Source: a virus
DNA: 27,204 nucleotides
Direction: 5' to 3' (one strand)
IMG/VR virus record: IMGVR_UViG_3300045747_000068
Span: 1 to 27,204 of that record
The position numbers and the translations under genes were made by a program. Below, piece after piece: positions 13,895 through 26,668 of the stretch; the first letter of the stretch is position 1, and each line of letters begins with the position of its first letter. Under the pieces are notes generated by a model. The model was not told the origin of the DNA, made no database searches, and saw nothing but the letters and a program-made list of their open reading frames with translations.

Positions 13895-13989
13895 TTACAA
13901 ATAAAGACTTTCTCTGGGCACTTGGTGGAACAGTAATTGTTCTTGTCCCTCTTGTTTACTTTATGTATAGCGCGGGGTGCTTTAAATGA
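13891..13989 (+). CDS. Possible 32-aa single-pass membrane microprotein
   Basis: A short ORF starting with GTG at 13891, with GGAG six bases upstream. It overlaps the fibre stop by four bases and itself ends in an ATGA overlap with the following gene. The product (MITNKDFLWALGG..., ending YSAGCFK) has one hydrophobic segment at about residues 8-27 and an SAGC motif close to the end that resembles a lipobox. The coupling on both sides and the good ribosome site support translation. It could simply be a translational relay between the two fibre genes. No homologue is recognised. Confidence 0.45.
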   Translation: MITNKDFLWALGGTVIVLVPLVYFMYSAGCFK

Positions 13990-14426
13990 GCGTACCAATT
14001 TCAGGCACAACCGGAATCTCTCTGGTTCAAGACGCAACCATCACTACTGCAAAGATTGTTGATACCAGCATCACTGCTGCAAAACTGAATGGAGCGCAGA
14101 CAGGCTCTGCTCCTATTTATGGTTGTAGGGCTTGGTGTGTGTTCAATGGGAATACTGCTGGAACCAATGCTCCTCTGGCAGGTGGAAACGTGACCTCGGT
14201 GACTAAAAACGCTACGGGAGACTACACGATTAACTTCACCACTGCGCTACAAGACACTAACTTTTCATTATCAGGCTCGGCGAATGTTGCAGCAGCTAAT
14301 AAGACGGTGTTCACAGAGCATTCGACTGCGAGAACTACATCTTCCGTAAGTGTGCTTACTTCGCAAGGTGGTGCTGGTTCTGCCCAAAGTGACCCCACTT
14401 TAGTATCTGTCGCAATCTTCCGCTAA
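13986..14426 (+). CDS. Tail fibre distal or accessory protein (146 aa)
   Basis: A 146-residue protein. The N-terminal 35 residues have the repeated helical pattern DATITTAKIVDTSITAAKLN, which precedes fibre tips in many phages. Residues about 42-110 (SAPIYGCRAWCVFNGN, then NATGDYTINFTTALQDTNF) match a small beta-rich module I associate with tail or baseplate tips. The end (SDPTLVSVAIFR) is also typical. It is the second gene of the fibre block. DNA style (GCT/GGT-type, fewer GTA and TAC codons by eye) differs from genes upstream, suggesting it was acquired with its neighbours. Probably part of the receptor-binding apparatus. Confidence 0.7.
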   Translation: MSVPISGTTGISLVQDATITTAKIVDTSITAAKLNGAQTGSAPIYGCRAWCVFNGNTAGTNAPLAGGNVTSVTKNATGDYTINFTTALQDTNFSLSGSANVAAANKTVFTEHSTARTTSSVSVLTSQGGAGSAQSDPTLVSVAIFR

Positions 14427-14435
14427 GGACTCAAT

Positions 14436-15101
14436 ATGGCCGGAACACTAAAAGTACACGTACAGCTTGGCGACTCAGCCACAGCTACTAATAACTTCAT
14501 GGTCACTGCTGAAGCGGCTGATGGAACTATGAAGATTGCCCGAGGTAACAAAGGGGCAACAACGCAAGATATTCTGACGGTGGATGCAAGTGGAAAAGTT
14601 GCGATGCCGCAAGGTATGGCAGGTGGGTCTTTGACTCTAGGCACTGCAATTGCTACTACAAGCGGATTGAACGCCGACTTTACGGGTATCCCGAGTTGGG
14701 CCAAGCGAATCACTGTAATGCTTCGTGGCGTTTCCCTATCAGGAGTTAGTGACTACTTTCTCCGGGTTGGCAATTCAGGGGCGTTCGTAACTACTGGATA
14801 TGCGTCATCTTGGTCTTACGCGACCACAGGGGTGGCTACAGGGACATCTACTGCTGGATTTGGGATGACTGGAAATTCTGCGGCTGGAGCCATGAGCACC
14901 CAGTTTGTGCTTACCTTACAAGATGCAGCTACCAATTCTTGGGTTTGTACCCAAGCAGGTGCGGATACCGCTGGCTCATCTACTCGGATGGGTGGTGGGT
15001 CTATAACCCTGTCTTCCGCACTTGATCGTATTCGCCTTACATCACAGAACGGTACAGACACTTTTGATGCTGGCTCCATGAACATCATGTATGAGGGATA
15101 A
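14436..15101 (+). CDS. Tail fibre-like protein, paralogue 1 (221 aa)
   Basis: Residues 1-60 read as a short adaptor region (MAGTLKVHVQLGDSATATNN, ILTVDASGKVAMPQ) like those found in phage tail proteins and fibre adhesins. Residues about 70-221 form a beta-rich domain starting ADFTGIPSWAKRITVML and ending LDRIRLTSQNGTDTFDAGS, NIMYEG. The same domain ends the next gene, so the two are paralogues with about 20-residue anchor motifs at both ends and a divergent middle. This layout fits receptor-binding tips that exchange or diversify their central part. No catalytic motif for a depolymerase is visible. Confidence 0.7.
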   Translation: MAGTLKVHVQLGDSATATNNFMVTAEAADGTMKIARGNKGATTQDILTVDASGKVAMPQGMAGGSLTLGTAIATTSGLNADFTGIPSWAKRITVMLRGVSLSGVSDYFLRVGNSGAFVTTGYASSWSYATTGVATGTSTAGFGMTGNSAAGAMSTQFVLTLQDAATNSWVCTQAGADTAGSSTRMGGGSITLSSALDRIRLTSQNGTDTFDAGSMNIMYEG

Positions 15102-15104
15102 CAA

Positions 15105-15710
15105 ATGACCGCAGCAATTTCAGCACCAACCTCAACCACAGGTTCCCTCAAAGTTAATGGTACGGATGTAGTTACCTTTGACTCCACTGGGATTATCTCG
15201 GGGGTGAACAAGTCGGCAGTGTCGCAACAAGCTACGCTTGGGACAACTCAGAACACCACTGCAGGGACAAGCATCGACTTTACTGGGATACCTTCGTGGG
15301 TCAAGCGCATTACCGTATCCATGAACGGCGTATCGACCAACGGGACTTCCCAGACTATTTTGCAGCTTGGTAAGTCAGCGGGTGTGGAGACTACGGGGTA
15401 CACCTCCTATGGTATCCAGCAAATTTCCAACTCCAGCGGATTGGCCTCGTTCACTACAGGCTTGGCTGCAGCGGCAGGAACAGGTACAACGGCAGCGGGT
15501 ACTCGCTACGGTCAGATGGTACTGACATTAATGGATCTTGCCACAAACACTTGGTCTATGCAAGGTCAGTGGGCCAATATTGGCGATGCCGTGATGAATC
15601 AAGCTGCGGGTATCAAAGCCCTCGCTGGAACGCTTGACCGTGTTCGCCTGACTACGGTGAATGGTACGGACACCTTTGACGCGGGCAGCGTTAACATCCT
15701 GTACGAGTAA
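15105..15710 (+). CDS. Tail fibre-like protein, paralogue 2 (201 aa)
   Basis: A short N-terminal region (SAPTSTTGSLKVNGTDVVTF) leads to the domain shared with the preceding gene: IDFTGIPSWVKRITVSMNGV at its start and LDRVRLTTVNGTDTFDAGS, NILYE at its end. The middle third, rich in Thr, Gly and Ala, differs. It starts three bases after the preceding stop. Together with the previous gene it looks like a duplicated tip module, which may broaden host range. Whether the two products trimerise separately or together cannot be told from sequence. Confidence 0.7.
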   Translation: MTAAISAPTSTTGSLKVNGTDVVTFDSTGIISGVNKSAVSQQATLGTTQNTTAGTSIDFTGIPSWVKRITVSMNGVSTNGTSQTILQLGKSAGVETTGYTSYGIQQISNSSGLASFTTGLAAAAGTGTTAAGTRYGQMVLTLMDLATNTWSMQGQWANIGDAVMNQAAGIKALAGTLDRVRLTTVNGTDTFDAGSVNILYE

Positions 15711-18502: not shown

Positions 18503-18811
18503 TTATTCCGATTGTTTAGCTCGGGCTGCGTCATACTTGCGTTGTTCTTGCTCATCAGTACCGCGTCGAGGCAACGCGGCCAATTGAAGTTGACTGGCCA
18601 TCACTTCGCGTTTCTTCTGAAGGAAGTGAATGGCCTTGTCCAAGTCTTCGATAGCCTTATGGGCGTCACCCTTGCGACCCAATCGCCACAGGTACTTGGT
18701 AGCTGCCCCTACCAAATAGTCCCAGTTCAGGGCTACCACAACGTCCCAATGCTGGGGTGTGCCTTCTTGTTTATAGTGGGAGCCACCCACTTGTTTGTCG
18801 TTCGCGCTCAT
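18503..18811 (-). CDS. DUF3310-family protein (102 aa)
   Basis: Residues about 8-75 match the DUF3310 pattern: VGGSHYKQEGTPQHWDVV, NWDYLVGAATKYLWRLGRKG, then IEDLDKAIHFLQKK. Such small helical proteins are common in the early regions of diverse phages, often near nucleotide-metabolism genes. Their role is not settled. The C-terminal 25 residues are charged and Ala/Gln-rich. It overlaps the HD gene stop by four bases (ATGA), so it is translated together with the HD enzyme and the synthase. Confidence 0.85.
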   Translation of the reverse strand: MSANDKQVGGSHYKQEGTPQHWDVVVALNWDYLVGAATKYLWRLGRKGDAHKAIEDLDKAIHFLQKKREVMASQLQLAALPRRGTDEQEQRKYDAARAKQSE

Positions 18812-19284
18812 CGTAGTGTATCCAAAAATGTGGACGCCTCCATTGTCGGCGGTATGCGGGCGTCCAAATACGCAATACCAGCCCTGACTACTCCCTCCAT
18901 CTTGAGGTTACCCATATCTACCTCGGCTTGGCAGTACATGATAAGCTCCAGCATATCGGCCCACTTGATGCATTCTGCTTCGTCAGGTAGTAGCCCGTAG
19001 TCTATACCCAATCTACGGTTGAAGCTATCCTCCAGCTTCTCCAATGACTCTCTCAACTCTCTGCTGGCCCACTTGGCGGTAGCAGGGGTGTCCCCCGTAA
19101 CTGACTCAGCTAGGTCGTGGGTCAATGCAGAGTGGAGCATCATAGCGCTGGGCTTGCAAATCTCCAGTAGAATCATTGCTACGCCCCAGCTATGCTCGGC
19201 CACATTTTGGGTGTGGATAGTACGCTTGGTGTGGAACCGCTTGGTCACACCGGCTTCGTACAACTCTTTGAATCTACGGTTCAT
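18808..19284 (-). CDS. HD-domain 5'-deoxynucleotidase, YfbR-like (158 aa)
   Basis: The HD metal site is clear: QNVAEHS (His31), LTHDLAE (His56-Asp57) and IKWADMLELIMYCQAE (Asp110), with VTGDTPATAK after the HD pair, as in YfbR-type enzymes that hydrolyse deoxynucleoside monophosphates. ATG 19284 is chosen because it forms an ATGA overlap with the synthase stop and has an AAAGG upstream; a TTG at 19314 would add ten residues but is less likely. Located beside the synthase, it probably removes a host dNMP such as dTMP so that the modified nucleotide is favoured. Substrate is inference. Confidence 0.8.
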   Translation of the reverse strand: MNRRFKELYEAGVTKRFHTKRTIHTQNVAEHSWGVAMILLEICKPSAMMLHSALTHDLAESVTGDTPATAKWASRELRESLEKLEDSFNRRLGIDYGLLPDEAECIKWADMLELIMYCQAEVDMGNLKMEGVVRAGIAYLDARIPPTMEASTFLDTLR

Positions 19285-20261
19285 TTTTCGCGCCTTTCCA
19301 GCCACTCTAGACAAGCCAGCTTGACGGCTGTATCGGGTATGGTGGTAGCGTAACTGACCGCACGAGTGAAGCTACCCTCTTTGTAGCACTTCCAGGACTT
19401 GGCCATGGGTTGTAGCACCCAATTGATGTACGAGTGGTCGTAGCTGCCGTAGTAGTCGTCCATGACTAGGTTGGATACGAACTTGGCGCAATCGCGTAGG
19501 AACGCATCTGCTTGCTCATCGTGCCGAATCAATGGGGTGTGTACCCAAGCCTCGTTGTACAAGTTGGACTTCGGTTCGCTGGGGTGGTCGAGTAGGGGCC
19601 AATGCTTCTCGTAGATATGCCAGTCGTTACTGACTTGGGTGTAGGTACCAATGGGTACGCCTACCGCCAGGGCGATGAATTCCTGTAGCACCGACATGTG
19701 TACGGCGTTGGCCCCGTAGCAGCCCCAAACTACGTCATTGGAGCGATTACAAACTGTCATGTCCAACTTACCCTCACGGATGCGGAAGTAGATGTGGGTG
19801 TTACAGGGTAAGTCTTTGGACCCCAAATTGGCCCCATCGTATAGACCGTCCCACATGGCTACCACTGCTCGGCGCGTATTGTGGTCACGTTGTAGTAACC
19901 CCACCAGGTTTTTCAATTGGTCGGTATCAAAGTGTTTGCGCCAGCGGTATCCGTAGGCGCCATTGAGAGTGATGCCGTCATCGCTGAAGTCGCCCATGTT
20001 GCCTGCGAACTTCTTGACGAACTCGACATCATTGCGACCCGCCAGCATCCAGATGGACTCCATGATATGGAAGTACGGATTGGCATTGCGTTCCTCGTCA
20101 AACAGCATACGCTGAGTCGGGTTTTGGTACACCGTAGATACAGGTGTGGGGTAGGTCTTGACCGACCCGTTGCGGCTACCCTCGGTGGAGTGGTTAACCC
20201 GAAGGTTCCACAACGCATCTGAGTAGGCATCGTTGACGTTATTGGCGTGTAGGACTAGCAT
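19281..20261 (-). CDS. Thymidylate synthase-family enzyme, possible dUMP hydroxymethylase (326 aa)
   Basis: Family hallmarks are present: GAYGYRW (101-107), the catalytic cysteine in DLPCNTHIYF (Cys153), NRSNDVVWG (172-180) with the phosphate- and base-contacting Arg/Ser/Asp, an Asn in the YGANAVH loop (185), and DWHIY (213-217), equivalent to the DxHxY of classical synthases. Asn rather than Asp at the base-recognition loop favours dUMP over dCMP. The enzyme could make dTMP or, as in phages with modified thymidine, 5-hydroxymethyl-dUMP. The presence of a 5-hmdU kinase-like gene nearby favours the latter. Start 20261 has AAGGA; it overlaps the previous gene by 23 bases. Confidence 0.85.
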   Translation of the reverse strand: MLVLHANNVNDAYSDALWNLRVNHSTEGSRNGSVKTYPTPVSTVYQNPTQRMLFDEERNANPYFHIMESIWMLAGRNDVEFVKKFAGNMGDFSDDGITLNGAYGYRWRKHFDTDQLKNLVGLLQRDHNTRRAVVAMWDGLYDGANLGSKDLPCNTHIYFRIREGKLDMTVCNRSNDVVWGCYGANAVHMSVLQEFIALAVGVPIGTYTQVSNDWHIYEKHWPLLDHPSEPKSNLYNEAWVHTPLIRHDEQADAFLRDCAKFVSNLVMDDYYGSYDHSYINWVLQPMAKSWKCYKEGSFTRAVSYATTIPDTAVKLACLEWLERREK

Positions 20262-20517
20262 GATATTCCTTCAAGAGTTGGTTGAGTTCTAACTTAACAC
20301 GGCGGGCAACGTCACCCCGCCAGCCATTGGAGTTGACCAAGAAACGGACAACGATGTCGTCTGCTGGGTCCAGGCCATAGGTATCCTCTATCGACTTGAG
20401 CGATAGCATAGCCGCTACGTATGGCTTACACCAGATGATGTAAGCAGGTTGATTCTTCCCAGGTGGGCCCCAATCTGCGAGTATGTCCGCAGCTATTTTG
20501 TTGAGTGGACGAGACAT
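20239..20517 (-). CDS. Small conserved phage protein (92 aa)
   Basis: The likely start is ATG 20517 (MSRPLNKIAADILADWG), which has a good GGAG site; upstream in-frame codons would add unlikely sequence. The middle reads WCKPYVAAMLSLKSIEDTYG, then VVRFLVNSNGWRGDVARRVK and ELNQLLKEY. I recall this pattern (a Tyr-containing helix, SNxxxWRGxxAxRxKxEL) in small early proteins of several unrelated phages, with no known function. It is helical throughout. It lies just after a TATAAT element and immediately before the synthase, so it belongs to the nucleotide and modification unit. Confidence 0.7.
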   Translation of the reverse strand: MSRPLNKIAADILADWGPPGKNQPAYIIWCKPYVAAMLSLKSIEDTYGLDPADDIVVRFLVNSNGWRGDVARRVKLELNQLLKEYHASPTRQ

Positions 20518-20544
20518 GTCGTTCTCCGTAGTTGGTAAGCCTCT

Positions 20545-20550
20545 ATTATA
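20545..20550 (-). promoter_or_regulatory. Candidate -10 box (TATAAT) upstream of the 92-aa, synthase, HD and DUF3310 genes
   Basis: On the - strand, CCCTTATAATAGAGG lies between the TAG of the methyltransferase-like gene and the next ATG at 20517. The hexamer is perfect, and the following AGAGG resembles the other early candidate (TATAATAGACC). The -35 region at the usual distance (CGCTAT) is poor. If real, it gives the nucleotide-pool genes their own transcript. Confidence 0.35.
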
Positions 20551-20554
20551 AGGG

Positions 20555-21271
20555 CTAGACGTATGGGATAGCGGTAAATCGAGTGTTCCCGACAATATGT
20601 TTTACAACGCAGTAGAACTCTCCAGCCTCGCGCATAGCGGCGGTGATGGTCAGTCCTTTGTCGCTGAGCCAATTGTCGTAGGCTACCAAGTATGACTCAG
20701 CCGTGGGGTCGACAGGTTCGCCAAAGTCTCTCTCATACGTCTTGTAGTTGAGGTGAATCTTGTGGCATGAGGTGTCCGTAAACCACACTACAATTGAGGG
20801 CTTCCGCAGTACTGCTCGTGAGACGTTATCCCACATTTCCTTAACGCCTTTGGTCTTGATGGTACCCACAGACATGTCGAGTAGCAGGACATCGTAAACC
20901 GACAAGTCTGCCTCGGCTAGCATGAGCATGGAGTCGTCAATCTGGTAGACGTTGGGATACAAACTCTTGAGGTACTTCACGCATGTGGGGTCTCGCTCAA
21001 AGAAATGATGCTGAGCCCCCTCCACGGATTGGTCCACCACTTGTGCCGACGCACCGACCCCGCCAAAGGCGTGTAGCACCTTGGGCTTCTCCAATCCCTT
21101 GAGGGCAGGGGGGAGTAGGGTGGTCAAGCAGGTAAGGTGGCGTACCACATCACGGGTTGAGTCTTTGAGGAACTCTTGATATGAGTCCCGCACTTTGGTT
21201 TCCATGGTAGTTTCCATACCGATGGGCAGGTTGATGGAAAATCCATTCACTTTCAGGGTTTCTACGCGCAT
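20555..21271 (-). CDS. SAM-methyltransferase-like protein in the modification operon (238 aa)
   Basis: Residues 64-81 (KVLHAFGGVGASAQVVDQ) form a glycine-rich loop of the class I SAM-binding type. They are followed by an acidic end-of-strand-2 residue (HHFFERDP), a segment YQIDDSMLML, and a strand-4 motif YDVLLLDMS (126-134). The DPPY or NPPY motif of amino-methyltransferases and the PC motif of cytosine-C5 enzymes are absent, so a base amino or C5 methylase is not supported. The N-terminal 60 residues are helical and unfamiliar. It lies between HMUDK_hel-like and synthase genes, so it may tailor the modified base or be a fold relative with another role. Confidence 0.55.
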   Translation of the reverse strand: MRVETLKVNGFSINLPIGMETTMETKVRDSYQEFLKDSTRDVVRHLTCLTTLLPPALKGLEKPKVLHAFGGVGASAQVVDQSVEGAQHHFFERDPTCVKYLKSLYPNVYQIDDSMLMLAEADLSVYDVLLLDMSVGTIKTKGVKEMWDNVSRAVLRKPSIVVWFTDTSCHKIHLNYKTYERDFGEPVDPTAESYLVAYDNWLSDKGLTITAAMREAGEFYCVVKHIVGNTRFTAIPYV

Positions 21272-21286
21272 TTTCGTTTTCCTCTC

Positions 21287-21370
21287 GGGGGTAGGTAGGC
21301 CGGCAATCAGCCTAGGGCTTTGTAAATCTTTGAATACGGGGTCGTTTTCGCTCGGGTAGGGGGTAGGTAG
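21287..21370. repeat. Direct repeat GGGGGTAGGTAG, two copies
   Basis: The 12-base sequence occurs at 21287-21298 and 21359-21370, in the 120-base gap that separates the methyltransferase-like gene from the HMUDK_hel-like gene. Both copies follow a TTTTCG- or TTTTCC-type stretch and a TCGG. On the coding (-) strand the repeat reads CTACCTACCCCC. The spacing of 72 bases between copies and the asymmetry suggest protein-binding sites or a duplicated leader. There is no gene in this gap: a short open frame at 21307-21492 overlaps it and is not convincing. Confidence 0.6.
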
Positions 21371-21401
21371 CCCCCGACGCGAAAACGCGCCCTAGGGGGC
21401 T
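21369..21401 (-). terminator. Two-tier GC-rich hairpin at the end of the HMUDK_hel-like gene
   Basis: AGCCCCC (21369-21375) pairs with GGGGGCT (21395-21401), and inside it CGCG pairs with CGCG around an AAAA loop (TTTT on the other strand). The stop codon of the HMUDK_hel-like gene (TAG, 21392-21394) lies within the structure. There is no U tract after it, so it may attenuate or process the transcript rather than end it. Confidence 0.5.
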
Positions 21402-22219
21402 GGGGTATAGCGTGCTTTTGGCTTGCCTCCATAGTATTTAGTGCGAACGTACTTGCTAAACTCGCACATGACGTTCTGGGTGTTCTGGGCACAAAGCATC
21501 ATACCCGTTTCGGCATAGATTATCTTGCGCACCTCGTTCACTTCCTTGCGGAATTGGGTCTCACCGATAGCCTTCTGAGGTCTGTCGTACAGGTAGTTAA
21601 GCCCAGCGGTAGAGCCTGGCCCTACCCCGCACCATGTATCCCAATCAGGGGCGAACTGTAGGGGCATGTCCAACATCTTGAGGTCTGCGATTATCTGACC
21701 CCGCAGGAACGTACCAATGCCTGGTACAACTAGCTTCTTGTCGGCGCTCTCCAGGGTATCCCTTTTGTTAATGGGGTTAGCTACCAGTTGGTCGTATAGC
21801 TTGCTTAGTACGCGGGCAATAATCACCTCTTTGGCCTCGCCACCTGCTGAGTAGCCACCCGTTATCATGTAGGCGCTGGTCCACACTTTTGCCCCAGTAG
21901 TCTTGCGTTTAGCAATAGCTTCAATGAAGCTATACGGAGCCCACTCTACTGGGAACCCAATGTCGGCCAGGGTTTCCGGCAAGTTGACCATACGAGCCAA
22001 CGCAGTAGCGAATACCAGATTGTCGTGCCCGATACCCTTAGCCAAGAAGTGTCGGTGAATCCAACGGGTCACCTTGTCGTCTTCACGACGCACGTTACAA
22101 AACCTGTACTCATTTAGAATGACGTCTCCAGTGTAGGGTCGCACTTCACCAGCCTCTTTGCGAATACGAATGTACTCGCGTTCGAGCACCCAATGTTTGA
22201 GGTCGGGTAGGTGTTTCAT
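21392..22219 (-). CDS. HMUDK_hel-like DNA base hypermodification protein (275 aa)
   Basis: Matches the helical-domain family first named alpha-glutamyl/putrescinyl thymine pyrophosphorylase and later 5-hmdU DNA kinase helical domain. The signature YRFCNVRREDDKVTRW (38-53) is characteristic. It is followed by ALARMVNLPETLADIG, a KVWTSAYMITGG segment, a helix-hairpin-helix-like VPGIGTFLRGQIIADL (165-180) with a glycosylase-type fold flavour, and WCGVGPGSTAGLNYL. The protein should bind DNA and present 5-hmdU for chemistry. It starts with an ATGA overlap after the inserted two-gene cassette. In other phages a P-loop kinase is associated; here it is the separate gene at 23144-23710. Confidence 0.8.
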   Translation of the reverse strand: MKHLPDLKHWVLEREYIRIRKEAGEVRPYTGDVILNEYRFCNVRREDDKVTRWIHRHFLAKGIGHDNLVFATALARMVNLPETLADIGFPVEWAPYSFIEAIAKRKTTGAKVWTSAYMITGGYSAGGEAKEVIIARVLSKLYDQLVANPINKRDTLESADKKLVVPGIGTFLRGQIIADLKMLDMPLQFAPDWDTWCGVGPGSTAGLNYLYDRPQKAIGETQFRKEVNEVRKIIYAETGMMLCAQNTQNVMCEFSKYVRTKYYGGKPKARYTPAP

Positions 22220-22231
22220 TTAATAGCCCCA
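22211..22231. repeat. Imperfect direct repeat, left copy (partner at 23139-23160)
   Basis: GTGTTTCATTTAATAGCCCCA here matches GTGTATCATTTGAGTAGCCCCA at 23139-23160 at 19 of 22 positions with one gap. The two copies flank exactly the 67- and 243-residue genes. In both, the match covers the stop codon of one gene and the ATG of the next. This fits insertion of the cassette by recombination at short homology, or a duplication created on insertion. Confidence 0.7.
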
Positions 22232-22419
22232 CAAAAAATCAATAGGGCTATCATTGTTGACAGCCAAGTAATCGTTGCTCGCGCAGCATTCATGTCTGCT
22301 GTTCCTTCTGGAAGAAATCCTCTACCAACGAACGCATACGTAGTCAGGTTTGCAACCATTACTAGGGCTGGGATAGCCGCAATGAGCGCGAGGGCTGCAA
22401 ATATGTATTGCCTTTTCAT
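22216..22419 (-). CDS. Small membrane protein in the inserted cassette (67 aa)
   Basis: Start ATG 22419 (MKRQYIFAALALIAAIPAL) overlaps the stop of the preceding gene by four bases; a longer upstream frame would add an implausible Arg/Trp-rich piece. Two membrane segments are predicted: residues about 5-25 and 45-63 (ARATITWLSTMIALLIF, ending CGAIK). Between them lies a Gly/Asp loop. There is no known family. Small two-segment proteins in early phage regions are sometimes exclusion or holin-like proteins, but nothing specific supports that. It belongs to the cassette flanked by the direct repeats. Confidence 0.6.
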   Translation of the reverse strand: MKRQYIFAALALIAAIPALVMVANLTTYAFVGRGFLPEGTADMNAARATITWLSTMIALLIFCGAIK

Positions 22420-23147
22420 TTCAAACCCCCAATCCCGTGCGCGGCTTCTGCAAATTCGACGCCAGCCGTAAAACTCCATGCCGATGAAACAAAAGCATAT
22501 TTAAGGTCATGCTCTAAATACCCTTCTTTTATCTGCTCATTCGTCAGCGGCTTGGGCGCTCCTTGTGGTGCTGCGTAGAGTGGCATCGCTGTGCTTCCGA
22601 AAAATGTCACTGGCTTCTGTATTGACAGCCCTATAAACTGCTTGTGACCATCAAGCCTGTCGTAGCCGCCTTCGCCAACAACTGCCCACGCCACAGGCTC
22701 TTGCTCCCCCTTTGGTGCTGCTTTTAGCTTGTTCGCAAAGTCACGAACTTCTTGCGGGCAGTTAGCAAGCCACTCATCGCTAGTTGCAGGCTCTTGCTCC
22801 TGTACTGGCTGAGCGGCCTGTGGTGCTGTCATGGCATCCTGCAACTCATTAGATGCATCCATGTACTCACCTATCTTTGAGCCTGCTTCCATTCCTTCTG
22901 AGTAGCCAGCCTCCCAAGCATCCCATCCTTCACAGTCGCACACATAATGATCTGCTGCGTGGCTACTGTTTCGGTTAAACCCATGTGGAGCTTTTGCGTG
23001 GGGGTTGCACTTTGGTTCTGATTGCTGCGCGAGTGCTTCCGTCAGTGCTGCGTAGAGTTCTTTTCTAGCATTTCTGTTTGTCTCAAAAGGCCATTGCTGT
23101 GCATACGCATCAGCCAGCGCCATCAGCGTCTCTACTGTGTGTATCAT
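22416..23147 (-). CDS. Mosaic phage hypothetical protein, beta-proteobacterial type (243 aa)
   Basis: A loosely organised protein. An N-terminal helix (MIHTVETLMALADAY) is followed by a Cys/His-rich segment (CDCEGWDAWEAGYSEG), a Gln/Pro/Glu-rich linker, EPVAWAVVGEGGYD, TAMPLYAAPQG and a C-terminal LTNEQIKEG...EFAEAAHGIG block. I have seen this mix of modules (EPVAW, PLYAAPQ, EFARAAHGI-like ends) in hypothetical proteins of phages and prophages of Burkholderiales, which is the main clue to host. Function unknown. DNA style differs from the surrounding genes, supporting recent acquisition. Its ATG overlaps the kinase stop by four bases. Confidence 0.7.
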   Translation of the reverse strand: MIHTVETLMALADAYAQQWPFETNRNARKELYAALTEALAQQSEPKCNPHAKAPHGFNRNSSHAADHYVCDCEGWDAWEAGYSEGMEAGSKIGEYMDASNELQDAMTAPQAAQPVQEQEPATSDEWLANCPQEVRDFANKLKAAPKGEQEPVAWAVVGEGGYDRLDGHKQFIGLSIQKPVTFFGSTAMPLYAAPQGAPKPLTNEQIKEGYLEHDLKYAFVSSAWSFTAGVEFAEAAHGIGGLK

Positions 23148-23160
23148 TTGAGTAGCCCCA
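23139..23160. repeat. Imperfect direct repeat, right copy (partner at 22211-22231)
   Basis: This copy spans the end of the kinase gene and the ATG of the 243-residue gene. Removing the cassette between the copies would join the kinase stop directly to the ATG of the HMUDK_hel-like gene in the same ATGA overlap arrangement used throughout this operon. Confidence 0.7.
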
Positions 23161-23710
23161 GTAATTGAGGTAGCATTGGTTGGTCGTGATGAAGTACCGC
23201 AACCTTGTGAGGGGTACTATTCAATAACCGTAGACGCAGACGCTCAATGGTATCGTACTTATCGCGGGTCAACTGTGGGTTGAACTTATTGGTACTACCA
23301 TTGGCCTCACGTCGGGCTACGACACGTTCCAGGCAAAGCTCTATGGGGGTATCCAGGAACACGTAGATGTACTCGTCGCCATACTGTAGAGAGTCCGTAC
23401 CCATGGCCCCGTAGTAGGTGGACTGCAACAATCCTTCGTGGACCACATGACCCAATTGGAAGTACTTGTGTACCAGTGACATAGCCTCCTTGGCCGAGGA
23501 TACGGTGTCCATACCCCCGCAGTTGTTATCGTAGGAACCCAGTACAAAGATGGGTAGCTCGATGTCTGGACGCGTCAGCGAGTACCCTTCAGTCTTGAGA
23601 GCTGTACCTTTTACAGATACCACCTTATTTACTTGCGACGCTTTCATCAACTCACGGACAGCGGTTGTTTTACCTGCGCCCGAGCATCCGTGTATTTTCA
23701 GAATTGCCAT
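23144..23710 (-). CDS. P-loop kinase, candidate 5-hmdU DNA kinase (188 aa)
   Basis: A clear Walker A motif, GCSGAGKTT (8-16), opens the protein. VKGTALKTEGYSL and IFVLGSYDNNCGGMDTV follow, then the acceptor-side VVHEGLLQSTYYG, a Walker B-like YIYVFLDTP and a lid CLERVVARRE. This fits the deoxynucleoside or DNA-base kinase branch, including the 5-hydroxymethyldeoxyuridine DNA kinases of hypermodified phages. The LGSYDNNCGG element is the part I most associate with that group. The gene is coupled to the preceding 124-residue gene (13-base overlap). It would phosphorylate the hydroxymethyl group of the base in DNA. A free-nucleotide kinase is the alternative. Confidence 0.75.
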   Translation of the reverse strand: MAILKIHGCSGAGKTTAVRELMKASQVNKVVSVKGTALKTEGYSLTRPDIELPIFVLGSYDNNCGGMDTVSSAKEAMSLVHKYFQLGHVVHEGLLQSTYYGAMGTDSLQYGDEYIYVFLDTPIELCLERVVARREANGSTNKFNPQLTRDKYDTIERLRLRLLNSTPHKVAVLHHDQPMLPQLLGLLK

Positions 23711-24072
23711 ACAGTTGCCTTTGGTTTATCCGTCAACCCGACGGCAGGGAGTGGGGGAAGTGACCCCAATTCTTCCATGATATTACTGCTGCTGTGCTTG
23801 TAGGGATGTAGGGCTACGTCCCCAAACTTGGCTTGGTACTCGTCTAGGATGTCCATGCCGTAGTTCCAAAGCAGCTCGTAGTTGTCAACCGATTCGTTGG
23901 CCCAAGCTACCCAGACGTTGCTGAGAGGCAAGGTGTCTATACGACGCTTAATGGGATGCTTCTTCTGTAGGCGCCAAACGCTGTACAGAATTTGGGAGAT
24001 ACGGATGGGGTATACCATGATCTCTTTGTCAGACAACCCTTCGGTTGTCTCGTCATCAGTTATGTGTATCAT
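23698..24072 (-). CDS. Conserved early phage protein (124 aa)
   Basis: ATG 24072 (MIHITDDETTEGL) is chosen for its AAGGA site and the ATGA overlap with the preceding gene. Residues about 50-80 contain SNVWVAWANESVDNYELLW and a helix ending DEYQAKFGD. A related pattern (HPxxxWxxESxxNYxWL, then EYxxRYG) occurs in a phage and archaeal family of unknown function, sometimes labelled as a pyrimidine-dimer glycosylase on weak grounds. Here the resemblance is partial. A DNA- or base-related job would suit its place just ahead of the kinase, but I do not claim it. Confidence 0.65.
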   Translation of the reverse strand: MIHITDDETTEGLSDKEIMVYPIRISQILYSVWRLQKKHPIKRRIDTLPLSNVWVAWANESVDNYELLWNYGMDILDEYQAKFGDVALHPYKHSSSNIMEELGSLPPLPAVGLTDKPKATVWQF

Positions 24073-24239
24073 TTGGTATCCTTCAAGGCTTCTGAGATTC
24101 GTTCTTCCAAATCTCCTGCACATTCCCGTTCCCAAGCATCCCCATAACCGCAATAGTCAAGATGGTCAGACGCGGCCTGCAGTACTTCGCGTAGTTGGGC
24201 AACCTGCTTTTGTAGCTTAACCAGTTCTTCTGTAATCAT
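24069..24239 (-). CDS. Small coiled-coil protein (56 aa)
   Basis: Start ATG 24239 (MITEELVKLQKQVAQLREVL) lies in an ATGA overlap with the upstream stop and has GGGAGG at four bases. The first 30 residues form a heptad-type helix. A CGYGDAWERECAGDL segment and a charged helix follow. No family is recognised; it is similar in size to many early phage accessory proteins. Confidence 0.55.
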   Translation of the reverse strand: MITEELVKLQKQVAQLREVLQAASDHLDYCGYGDAWERECAGDLEERISEALKDTK

Positions 24240-24445
24240 CTTGCCTCCCAAAGGGTGAAGGGTTTGATGACGTACTCGCTGGGTTCATAAGCGTCCAGAG
24301 AGTGTTGAGCGTAGATGAGACCGTAGCAAGTACCGCCCCAAGAGTTGGTGTACTGAACGATTTTACGCACTTGAGGGTCACCCTGGTAGTGACCACCTGC
24401 GTCGATGATTTCATCCACTATGGCTCTGTCGTTGATGGTGGGCAT
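24236..24445 (-). CDS. Small hypothetical protein (69 aa)
   Basis: A soluble 69-residue protein beginning MPTINDRAIVDEIIDAGGHY and containing QYTNSWGGTCYGLIYAQH and the end YVIKPFTLWEAR. I have an impression of similar short phage proteins with NSWGGTCYG-type text but know no function. It has the strong GGAG site expected of the first gene of a transcript and lies 21 bases downstream of a candidate promoter. Confidence 0.6.
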   Translation of the reverse strand: MPTINDRAIVDEIIDAGGHYQGDPQVRKIVQYTNSWGGTCYGLIYAQHSLDAYEPSEYVIKPFTLWEAR

Positions 24446-24470
24446 TTTAGCTCCTTCGTTGAAAGATTCT

Positions 24471-24498
24471 ATTTTACCGCTAAATCGGTGTGGGTAAA
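24471..24498 (-). promoter_or_regulatory. Candidate promoter upstream of the kinase and modification genes
   Basis: In the 56-base gap after the helicase gene, the - strand carries TTTACC (24493-24498), a 16-base spacer and TAAAAT (24471-24476), then AGAATC. This is the best two-box promoter match of the - strand region. It would drive the 69-, 56- and 124-residue genes and the kinase onwards. The TAAAATAGA text echoes the other two early elements. Confidence 0.45.
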
Positions 24499-24501
24499 TA
24501 A

Positions 24502-25911
24502 TTATCGTATGGCACTTTTGGCGTAATCAATGAGAGCTTGATCAACGCGAGACTGGGTTACATCCTTCTTTGTAATGGCTTCCAGCACCTTGTCGTCCAT
24601 CGTGTCGTCGGCCAGCAATACGTGGTTCTTCACCACTGGGGAATCTTGACCTTGACGCCAGACCCGAGCGATAGCTTGTAGCCATAACTCCAAATCCTGA
24701 CTGAGCCCGAACCAGCAAATGTCCGAGCACGCACCTTGTAGATTGAGACCATGTCCTGCTGACCGCGGGTGGCCGATTAACAACGGTATCTTACCAGCGT
24801 TGAAGTCAGCCACTACCTGGGCCGTATTCTTACACCCAGTAATGTTGATGGCGTTCGGGAAACGCTTCAGTATGCGAGCACCGTCAGCAATGAACTCGTA
24901 CATGAGAAGCAAGGGGCGACCTTGTAGCTCTTCAATGAGCTCGGCTAGAGCGTCCAACTTCTCATCGTGAATGGGTAGGTACTCGCCACGCTCTTCTTGG
25001 GAGTATATGAATCCATTGGAGATTTGACGGCATTTGACCCCAACCGATGCCTTGTTAAACGCTGGTATGGTCTCGTCCAATACCTTGATGAGGTAGTCGC
25101 GCTCAAAGGTCTTGTACTGCTTGAGTACCGCAGGGGGTAGCGTCACACGAATGGTGTTGTGGATCAGCTCCGGCATAGTCAGTTTGTCCTTCGCCCGCAT
25201 ACGGAGCAGCATGTGCTGTACCCTAGCCATGATTTGTTCTTCAGCGTTGACGTTCATTTCGTACACGTACTGGATGTACGGGTGTGGATGCATGAACATC
25301 TGACGGAAGTGGGTGATATATTCACCCAAAGCCTTACCATCGTCAAGGAAGTAGCACTGACCGAACAGTTGGTGTAGACCGTTCGGGGCTGGCGTACCTG
25401 TAGCAATATTGCGGTACTTGATTTGGGGCAGCAACGGCTTCAGCATCTTGAAGCGCTGAGTAGTGATATCGGCAAATCGTGTGGACTCATCCGACAAGAT
25501 GAGGTCGAACCCCCACTTGTTACTCAACTGACCCGAGCGCATACCGACCACCTTACCAGGGTTGGTCACCTTGTACAAACTCTCTGGATTGATGACGTAG
25601 ACGTCAAACTTGGCCTTGAGCAACTCTTCACGCTGCTCGTCTGTCTTCTGGCATAGGTCGCAGACCCTCAGGTGATTGAAGTCTTTCCACTTCTGAGCCT
25701 CAAACGGCCAGACCGTCTGGGCTACCCGTAGTGGGGCCACCACTAGGGCGCGTCGGATGTCTTTGCGATCCAGCAGTACGGATATGAGGGCCAAGAATGT
25801 TGAGGTCTTGCCCAATCCTGGGTCCAGTAGTAACCCTGAGTTGGTACGTCCAAGGGCGAACGCAAGGGATTCCTCTTGGTAGTCCCTGGGTATCCAGCTA
25901 ATAGGTAGCAT
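24502..25911 (-). CDS. SNF2-type superfamily 2 helicase (469 aa)
   Basis: Residues 30-37 give Walker A (DPGLGKTS), 141-144 a DExx-type motif II that reads DEST, 171-177 motif III (TGTPAPN), and about 412-422 motif VI (QAIARVWRQGQ). Together with the GHPRSAGHGLNLQ segment of motif V these mark the SNF2/Rad54 branch used by many phages. The start is ATG 25911 (MLPISWIPRDYQ), with GGAG upstream and a 14-base overlap; the longer frame to 26082 overlaps the preceding gene and is not supported. Its role is probably DNA remodelling or branch migration in replication and recombination, alongside the VRR-NUC nuclease. Confidence 0.88.
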   Translation of the reverse strand: MLPISWIPRDYQEESLAFALGRTNSGLLLDPGLGKTSTFLALISVLLDRKDIRRALVVAPLRVAQTVWPFEAQKWKDFNHLRVCDLCQKTDEQREELLKAKFDVYVINPESLYKVTNPGKVVGMRSGQLSNKWGFDLILSDESTRFADITTQRFKMLKPLLPQIKYRNIATGTPAPNGLHQLFGQCYFLDDGKALGEYITHFRQMFMHPHPYIQYVYEMNVNAEEQIMARVQHMLLRMRAKDKLTMPELIHNTIRVTLPPAVLKQYKTFERDYLIKVLDETIPAFNKASVGVKCRQISNGFIYSQEERGEYLPIHDEKLDALAELIEELQGRPLLLMYEFIADGARILKRFPNAINITGCKNTAQVVADFNAGKIPLLIGHPRSAGHGLNLQGACSDICWFGLSQDLELWLQAIARVWRQGQDSPVVKNHVLLADDTMDDKVLEAITKKDVTQSRVDQALIDYAKSAIR

Positions 25912-26668
25912 AGAAGCTCCAATCTTGTTTGCGGGGTAGGTATACAATCTCGCTACGGTCTTTAAGCTGCTCGTGACGCAGGTCAATATCTTCACCGAAT
26001 TTGTATGTACCCTTCTCCAGCCCCCGAATGGCGCACATGATAGTCTCAGCCTCGGGTATACCGCAGGCCCGTCCTGGAGCACCTGGGGCTGGTAGGTCGC
26101 GTATCCACTCAGATATGTCGGCTAGTATGGTTGTAAGGCTGGATTCTGGATAGACAGCTTTGGCGCACTTGCGGGGAGACTCAGGCAGCAAAGTCGTAGC
26201 CACAGGCATTGATAGACTGACAGGCCAGCCCATAGTACGGTCAAAGATGTCCATAGATTTCCACTTGAAGTAGTCACCTATCTGGCAACCCTCAAAGTAG
26301 TCGTCAATGTTGTAGTACAAGTCTGAGTAGTTCGACTTGTACATGGTAGCCCAGACTTGGCTGGGAGTACCCTTGTCGCTCAAGCGATTGATGGCGTCGA
26401 ATCCCTTGACCCCTCTGAAGTATCGGCGCTCAGACCCACGTACAGCTGTTGGGTATACCCCCCGTACATACGACCAGAAGTTGTCGGCGTTAGCAGCCAA
26501 TAATGCCCCGCGTGCGTCGTAGAACATGAATAGGTACAAGGTATACTTGTCGGCCCACTCGTCTCCCATAGCCCCCCGCATAGCGTACATGAAGTCGTAC
26601 ATGGGGTCCAACTCTTTGGTTGTGACTAGGTCACGTGCGAACTGACGGTATTTAGTTGATATCGACAC
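25898..26668 (-). CDS. ADDT-like amino acid:DNA transferase of thymine hypermodification (256 aa)
   Basis: The protein has the layout of the amino acid:DNA transferase family (formerly aGPT-Pplase2): an N-terminal DPMYDFMYAMR, then ADKYTLYLFMFYDARGA, RRYFRGVKGFDAI, GDYFKWKSMDIFDRTMG (131-147) and IPEAETIMCAIRGLEKG with GEDIDLRHEQL (204-234). The family is thought to attach an amino acid to phosphorylated 5-hmdU in DNA. GTG 26668 is chosen as start because GGAG lies five bases upstream; an upstream TTG (26707) would add 13 residues. It overlaps the VRR-NUC gene by 17 bases and the helicase by 14. It separates two DNA-processing enzymes. Confidence 0.75.
   Translation of the reverse strand: MSISTKYRQFARDLVTTKELDPMYDFMYAMRGAMGDEWADKYTLYLFMFYDARGALLAANADNFWSYVRGVYPTAVRGSERRYFRGVKGFDAINRLSDKGTPSQVWATMYKSNYSDLYYNIDDYFEGCQIGDYFKWKSMDIFDRTMGWPVSLSMPVATTLLPESPRKCAKAVYPESSLTTILADISEWIRDLPAPGAPGRACGIPEAETIMCAIRGLEKGTYKFGEDIDLRHEQLKDRSEIVYLPRKQDWSFYATY

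Follow-up and report, generated by a model that had tools for sequence, protein, structure and literature searches.

The window, as we call the 27,204-base stretch of DNA analyzed here, is the complete IMG/VR entry IMGVR_UViG_3300045747_000068, a linear virus fragment from an uncultured phage. It carries on its - strand a set of genes with which, judging from their sequences, the phage very likely remodels the thymines of its DNA by attaching an amino acid or amine. Within this set lies a gene (20555-21271) for a class I S-adenosylmethionine (SAM)-dependent enzyme, and the explanation that we favor, and consider probable, is an operon for thymidine hypermodification in which a SAM-dependent enzyme performs a tailoring step; this step may complete the base with a decoration that has yet to be described. 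Phages shield their DNA with chemically complex thymines, and tailoring enzymes set the final chemistry of these bases. An earlier note on the same sequence had named five - strand genes between 18808 and 26668 as the parts of one such pathway; all five are present, and the SAM enzyme gene, which lies between two of them (HMUDK_hel and the thymidylate synthase-like gene), was overlooked. We infer the SAM-dependent last step from the fold of the protein, the exclusive linkage of its gene, its conservation, and the failure to find another tailoring enzyme in the records searched.

The proposed pathway

In the pathway that we propose, a thymidylate synthase (TS)-like enzyme would convert deoxyuridine monophosphate (dUMP) to 5-hydroxymethyl-dUMP, and an HD phosphatase would clear the competing deoxythymidine monophosphate (dTMP), so that 5-hydroxymethyldeoxyuridine (5-hmdU) could enter the DNA. 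A P-loop kinase, acting with HMUDK_hel, would phosphorylate the hydroxymethyl group in DNA, and ADDT would replace the phosphate with an amino acid or polyamine. The class I SAM enzyme would then use SAM to alkylate, most likely methylate, the attached side chain, and the finished modified thymine would resist host nucleases. The assignment of the hydroxymethylation, phosphorylation and ADDT steps to this pathway is well supported by family membership and conserved residues. An amino acid is one candidate for the donor used by ADDT; the ADDT tree described below makes a polyamine another.

Core genes of the operon

Pfam and profile searches of the five proteins recovered every family that the earlier note had proposed, that of ADDT by way of more sensitive tests and conserved residues, and on these matches and residues the reading of the genes as a single thymidine hypermodification pathway stands. 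The motifs quoted in that note (LGSYDNNCGG, YRFCNVRREDDKVTRW and GDYFKWKSMDIFDR) are found in the translations.

The ADDT-like amino acid (or amine):DNA transferase (25898-26668, - strand; 256 aa) begins with a GTG codon at 26668, preceded by a GGAGAG box, in agreement with the end of the operon as first proposed. The protein matches phrog_6364 (E 1.2e-31) as well as PF18724 (see below), and an hhalign comparison of the ADDT proteins of the window's clade with those of Pseudomonas phage M6 and Rhodoferax podovirus P26218 gave a probability of 99.9 over 226 columns (E 4.7e-32). All 23 columns that are invariant in eight ADDT proteins, among them M6 gp51 and gp109 of Delftia phage PhiW-14, are retained, and tblastn found ADDT homologs in P26218, PhiW-14 and others. 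The putative 5-hmdU DNA kinase (23144-23710, - strand) has the P-loop GCSGAGKT and the LGSYDNNCGG element, can be aligned with M6 gp54 and its P26218 counterpart, and scores above the cut-off of 27 against PF18748 (E 1.4e-8, 35.0 bits). HMUDK_hel (21392-22219, - strand) is a stand-alone gene, as are M6 gp55 and PhiW-14 gp72; its product matches PF18723 with E 1.3e-32 (113.8 bits, above the cut-off of 25), and the protein is labeled aGPT-Pplase1 in the record of Pseudanabaena phage Pam3.

The TS-superfamily protein (19281-20261, - strand), a probable dUMP hydroxymethylase with Cys153 and Asn185, matches PF00303 (E 1.9e-20) and phrog_5131 (E 2.5e-111), and its best solved relative is the cytidine monophosphate (CMP) 5-hydroxymethylase MilA (5b6d, E 4.7e-20). 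The asparagine that the earlier note had placed at the base-binding loop is Asn185, which is invariant among six phage homologs, M6 gp58 included, and is aligned with an aspartate of MilA, a replacement that is consistent with dUMP hydroxymethylation. The HD-domain protein (18808-19284, - strand; PF12917 E 4.5e-16) is a YfbR-like 5'-deoxynucleotidase and is presumed to lower the competing dTMP.

A class I SAM enzyme within the operon

The candidate tailoring enzyme (20555-21271, - strand) is a protein of 238 aa, assigned to the class I SAM-dependent (methyltransferase-fold) enzymes from its family profile, the census described below, and its fold. It has no match in Pfam or NCBIfam, and in PHROG only a weak one to phrog_363, 'DNA methyltransferase' (0.015). 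When the family profile was run against PDB sequences, almost only class I SAM enzymes were found (best 7.5e-5). AlphaFold2, given a 22-member alignment, produced a model with a predicted local distance difference test score (pLDDT) of 93.1 and a predicted template modeling score (pTM) of 0.91, in which the Rossmann-like class I fold, the glycine-rich motif I and the acidic residue after beta-2 are all present. Motif I of the family reads FGGxG, with Gly71 and Gly73 invariant and Asp94 nearly so; Asp127 and Thr137 are also conserved, and most members have a D-[TS]-x3-K-x-H-L-x4-Y element following strand 5.

The class I SAM fold covers methyl-, aminopropyl- and aminocarboxypropyltransferases as well as SAM-processing enzymes, and the fold search returned class I enzymes of many reactions at a template modeling (TM) score of about 0.5, so that the modeled fold can be relied on but does not settle the reaction. 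In both the profile and the fold search the significant matches belong to class I SAM enzymes. Transfer of a methyl group is the most likely activity of this enzyme. Several more specific assignments were rejected. A first AlphaFold model, built from three near-identical sequences, reached a pLDDT of 58.6, and its fold matches were set aside; the top match of that model was MnmM, which dropped to 45th place once the good model was used, and the analogy with a 5-aminomethyluridine N-methylase was therefore dropped. A canonical N6A, N4C or 5mC DNA methyltransferase would carry motif IV ([NDS]PP[YFW] or PCQ), which is missing in 25/25 family members, and the GGGDG and DSSDP signatures of spermidine synthase, an enzyme considered in view of a PhiW-14-like ADDT, are missing from the same 25.

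The operon is found with the same gene content and order, SAM enzyme gene included, on three related contigs (L001, L002 and L007), the first of which stops inside the TS-like gene. Across the related contigs the SAM enzyme is 79-82% identical, with a nonsynonymous divergence (dN) of 0.13-0.16 and a synonymous divergence (dS) of 1.1-1.2, and its dN is lower than that of ADDT, the kinase, HMUDK_hel or the TS-like protein.

Linkage of the SAM enzyme family to ADDT cassettes

A census of ADDT loci was obtained by scanning IMG/VR with ADDT and HMUDK_hel alignments and removing duplicates, which left 77 distinct loci. The SAM enzyme family was delimited with an iterated profile, which clearly separates its lowest member (42.7 bits) from other open reading frames (8.1 bits). 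It is present in 20 of the 77, in every case on the ADDT strand. Members occur in 19/49 loci with HMUDK_hel and in 1/28 without it, the latter on a 6-kb contig. A reverse scan, in which IMG/VR was searched with the SAM enzyme itself to take out selection bias, gave 17 loci, three of them new, and all 17 lie in hypermodification cassettes, with the kinase and HMUDK_hel in each and ADDT wherever the contig is long enough.

A pattern scan of 84,980 cellular genomes found no relatives of the SAM enzyme, and among 50,697 GenBank phage records only Pam3 gave one. This protein, Pam3_39, is a distant relative that was found with a divergent family member; it scores 95 bits with the family profile and is located beside ADDT, the kinase and HMUDK_hel, with neighbor genes annotated aGPT-Pplase1 and 2. 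Stenotrophomonas phage DLP_5, which stood third in a viral fold search, reached 17 bits with the family profile, has no ADDT, and was left outside the family.

The position of the SAM enzyme gene within the cassettes varies: it can follow HMUDK_hel, with TS behind it, precede the kinase, follow the DUF3310-like gene, or come immediately ahead of ADDT. Some phages that share the window's backbone do not have it (L033, L038, L046, L111, L131, L139 and L150), and L050 is without it inside a clade that otherwise carries it; such absences are what would be expected of a swappable tailoring gene. The distribution of the enzyme on the ADDT tree needs six changes, and its pairwise distances correlate with those of ADDT at r 0.77, as compared to r 0.90 for ADDT and TS, the lower value being expected for an accessory gene. 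A second type of cassette, in L043, L054, L061 and L063, has the SAM enzyme gene immediately upstream of ADDT, followed by two tandem kinase paralogs, HMUDK_hel and TS; the SAM enzyme and ADDT genes overlap by ~11 bases in L054 and L061.

Known tailoring enzymes and the ADDT tree

The earlier note saw no pyridoxal phosphate (PLP) decarboxylase or radical SAM gene and suggested that the end product might differ from known ones or be completed by genes outside the window. The first point holds: family scans of the window's proteins found no PALP/PLP, radical SAM or FAD/DAO genes, in a record that may be incomplete. Absence from the window proves little by itself, because the record is a linear fragment, and a 35.7-kb relative was therefore used as a stand-in for the part that is absent; this relative, whose record may also be incomplete, gave no match to PALP, radical SAM, FAD or acetyltransferase families. 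No gene other than that of the SAM enzyme is thus visible as a candidate for the last step. To the suggestion that the end product may differ, the class I SAM enzyme inside the operon, which the note missed, offers a better answer.

Radical SAM, PALP or FAD genes were recognized in 21/77 ADDT loci. The ADDT tree splits 26/51 with a support of 95; the known tailoring genes are found on the side that contains M6, and the window belongs to the other, where it is grouped with PhiW-14 (support 93, not starred). In the GenBank records of M6, Bhz59 and Pam3 (L016, L188 and L187), the kinase is labeled 'terminase small subunit', the PALP protein 'threonine dehydratase' and the radical SAM protein 'DNA repair photolyase'; phrog_800 bears the same 'terminase small subunit' label.

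Comparison with known systems

In the characterized pathways, 5-hmdU is incorporated into DNA, phosphorylated by a 5-hmdU DNA kinase, and then altered by amine transferases and other enzymes; the DNA of phage M6 contains 5-(2-aminoethyl)dU (PMC6449724). Like the window, the gp51-gp59 cluster of M6 has genes for ADDT, the kinase, stand-alone HMUDK_hel, TS and HD on a single strand, and their order is shared. M6 also has PALP (gp52), radical SAM (gp53) and Nmad5 (gp56) genes; the window has none of the three, and a class I SAM enzyme gene separates its HMUDK_hel and TS genes.

Phage PhiW-14 makes putrescinylthymine from putrescine via a pyrophosphoryl-hmU intermediate, and infected cells lose dTTP (PMC5977210). 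Its ADDT homolog gp109 (27% identity) is the nearest characterized ADDT to the window on the tree, at the node just mentioned, and its HMUDK_hel (gp72) is likewise a stand-alone gene; unlike those of the window, its genes are dispersed over a 157-kb genome, in which no member of the SAM enzyme family was found. P26218 and its relatives share the ADDT-kinase-TS-HD block, with a TS about 40% identical, but P26218 lacks both HMUDK_hel and a SAM enzyme family member. Such sets, seen in L003 (P26218), L004 and relatives with no HMUDK_hel and no recognized tailoring gene, represent either a minimal hypermodification system or a case in which the role of HMUDK_hel is dispensable. The term podovirus-like, which the earlier note used for the window's phage, is plausible. 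Pam3, an isolated phage, has ADDT, the kinase and HMUDK_hel together with the distant family member Pam3_39; it is a myovirus and, unlike the window, has PALP and radical SAM-like genes as well.

A SAM-derived group is also used by CmoX of Synechococcus phage S-B43, which transfers carboxymethyl to cytosine (PMC12783734). The likeness to the step proposed here is the use of a SAM-derived group in phage DNA hypermodification; CmoX acts on cytosine with no described link to ADDT (PMC12783734), while the window's operon is a thymidine pathway with ADDT.

Alternative explanations

Several observations weigh against the SAM-dependent tailoring pathway proposed here. The match of ADDT to PF18724 (E 9.1e-6, 26.0 bits) is 0.2 bits short of the curated Pfam cut-off of 26.2, and TS cannot be separated from hydroxymethylase with certainty by sequence, a caution also found in PMC5977210. 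Known tailoring genes and the SAM enzyme occur together in only one of the 77 loci, L080 (Fisher p 1.4e-4), which speaks for the tailoring step, but this near exclusion tracks ADDT clades, so that the p value overstates independence. Both L080 and Pam3 (L187) combine PALP and radical SAM genes with SAM enzyme family members, of which L080 carries two. The pathway can also stop at ADDT, since certain phages with the window's backbone carry no SAM enzyme and no recognized tailoring gene of a known type. Finally, the PDB matches of the modeled enzyme do not choose any single class I reaction.

Could the end product simply be the ADDT adduct (for example, putrescinyl- or aminoacyl-thymine), with the SAM enzyme a separate methyltransferase of DNA or host targets that travels with the cassette? 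The P26218-like sets described above would fit such a minimal system, as would the placement of the window's ADDT on the PhiW-14/P26218 side of the tree, away from M6, given that PhiW-14 DNA has putrescinylthymine (PMC5977210). Against it, 17/17 reverse-scan loci lie in hypermodification cassettes, in which the position of the gene differs and several ADDT clades are represented, and motif IV of DNA methyltransferases is lacking in all 25 family members; we regard this explanation as unlikely. More radically, the operon might make only ordinary dTMP and nucleotide precursors for replication, with no base modification. The TS, HD and kinase families do occur in ordinary nucleotide metabolism, and GenBank calls the M6 and P26218 homologs 'thymidylate synthase', but the kinase exceeds the HMUDK cut-off, linked genes for HMUDK_hel and ADDT accompany it, among solved structures the TS-like protein is closest to a hydroxymethylase, and modified thymidine is found in M6, whose core genes are the same (PMC6449724). 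We consider ordinary precursor supply very improbable.

A different question is whether the SAM enzyme moves something other than a methyl group, such as aminopropyl from decarboxylated SAM or 3-amino-3-carboxypropyl, or builds the amine or amino acid donor of ADDT. The profile gives weak matches to polyamine aminopropyltransferases (1uir 0.0037, 7xif 0.013), TYW2, AzeJ/BelI and CmoA are among the top 50 fold matches, the tree puts the window nearer to the polyamine user PhiW-14, and the carboxymethyl transfer by CmoX is a precedent in phage DNA (PMC12783734). Against these stand the missing spermidine synthase signatures and the plain methyltransferases, which score equally in the profile and fold searches. 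Among class I SAM enzymes, moreover, no other reaction is nearly as common as methyl transfer. Such a non-methyl role seems quite unlikely to us.

Significance

At least 20 distinct viral loci with ADDT cassettes carry a SAM-dependent family that is named in none of the family libraries searched, and this linkage points toward a tailoring step beyond the PLP, radical SAM and FAD genes recognized here. The family predicts a class of alkylated thymidines that would be detectable by mass spectrometry. It also defines a testable gene set, with a relative in one isolated phage (Pam3), and possible enzymes for placing new groups on DNA. If, as is quite unlikely, the family moved aminopropyl or aminocarboxypropyl onto an amine that ADDT had installed in DNA, or made an unusual SAM-derived amino acid for ADDT to attach, both the thymine derivative and the DNA reaction would be ones not seen before.

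Other genes and features of the window

Several further genes lie within or beside the operon, all on the - strand. A SNF2-type helicase (24502-25911; PF00176 E 6.1e-20) sits between ADDT and the kinase in most relatives with the window's backbone and is a context gene. A 125-aa protein (23698-24072) is conserved in four close relatives, as found by comparison of relatives. In the interval between the SAM enzyme and the TS-like gene is a small conserved protein, phrog_13953 (20239-20517; E 2.1e-14), whose cluster is represented in 7 loci; the SAM enzyme is present in 6 of these. A DUF3310-like protein (18503-18811) matches phrog_5839 (E 4.8e-19) and, below the cut-off, PF11753 (E 1.5e-4); its gene often adjoins HD or TS in hypermodification cassettes. 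Between the kinase and HMUDK_hel (22216-23147) are two open reading frames without a family match, and relatives carry other genes or none there, which suggests an insertion hot spot.

In the window as a whole, late genes occupy the + strand up to ~17.5 kb, and early genes run on the - strand from 27.2 to 17.5 kb. A protein encoded at 1794-2564 has several near-repeats of LVGxPGTYSLTGGSAxLxVxRN, and paralogous proteins are encoded at 13986-15710; these are likely virion surface proteins.

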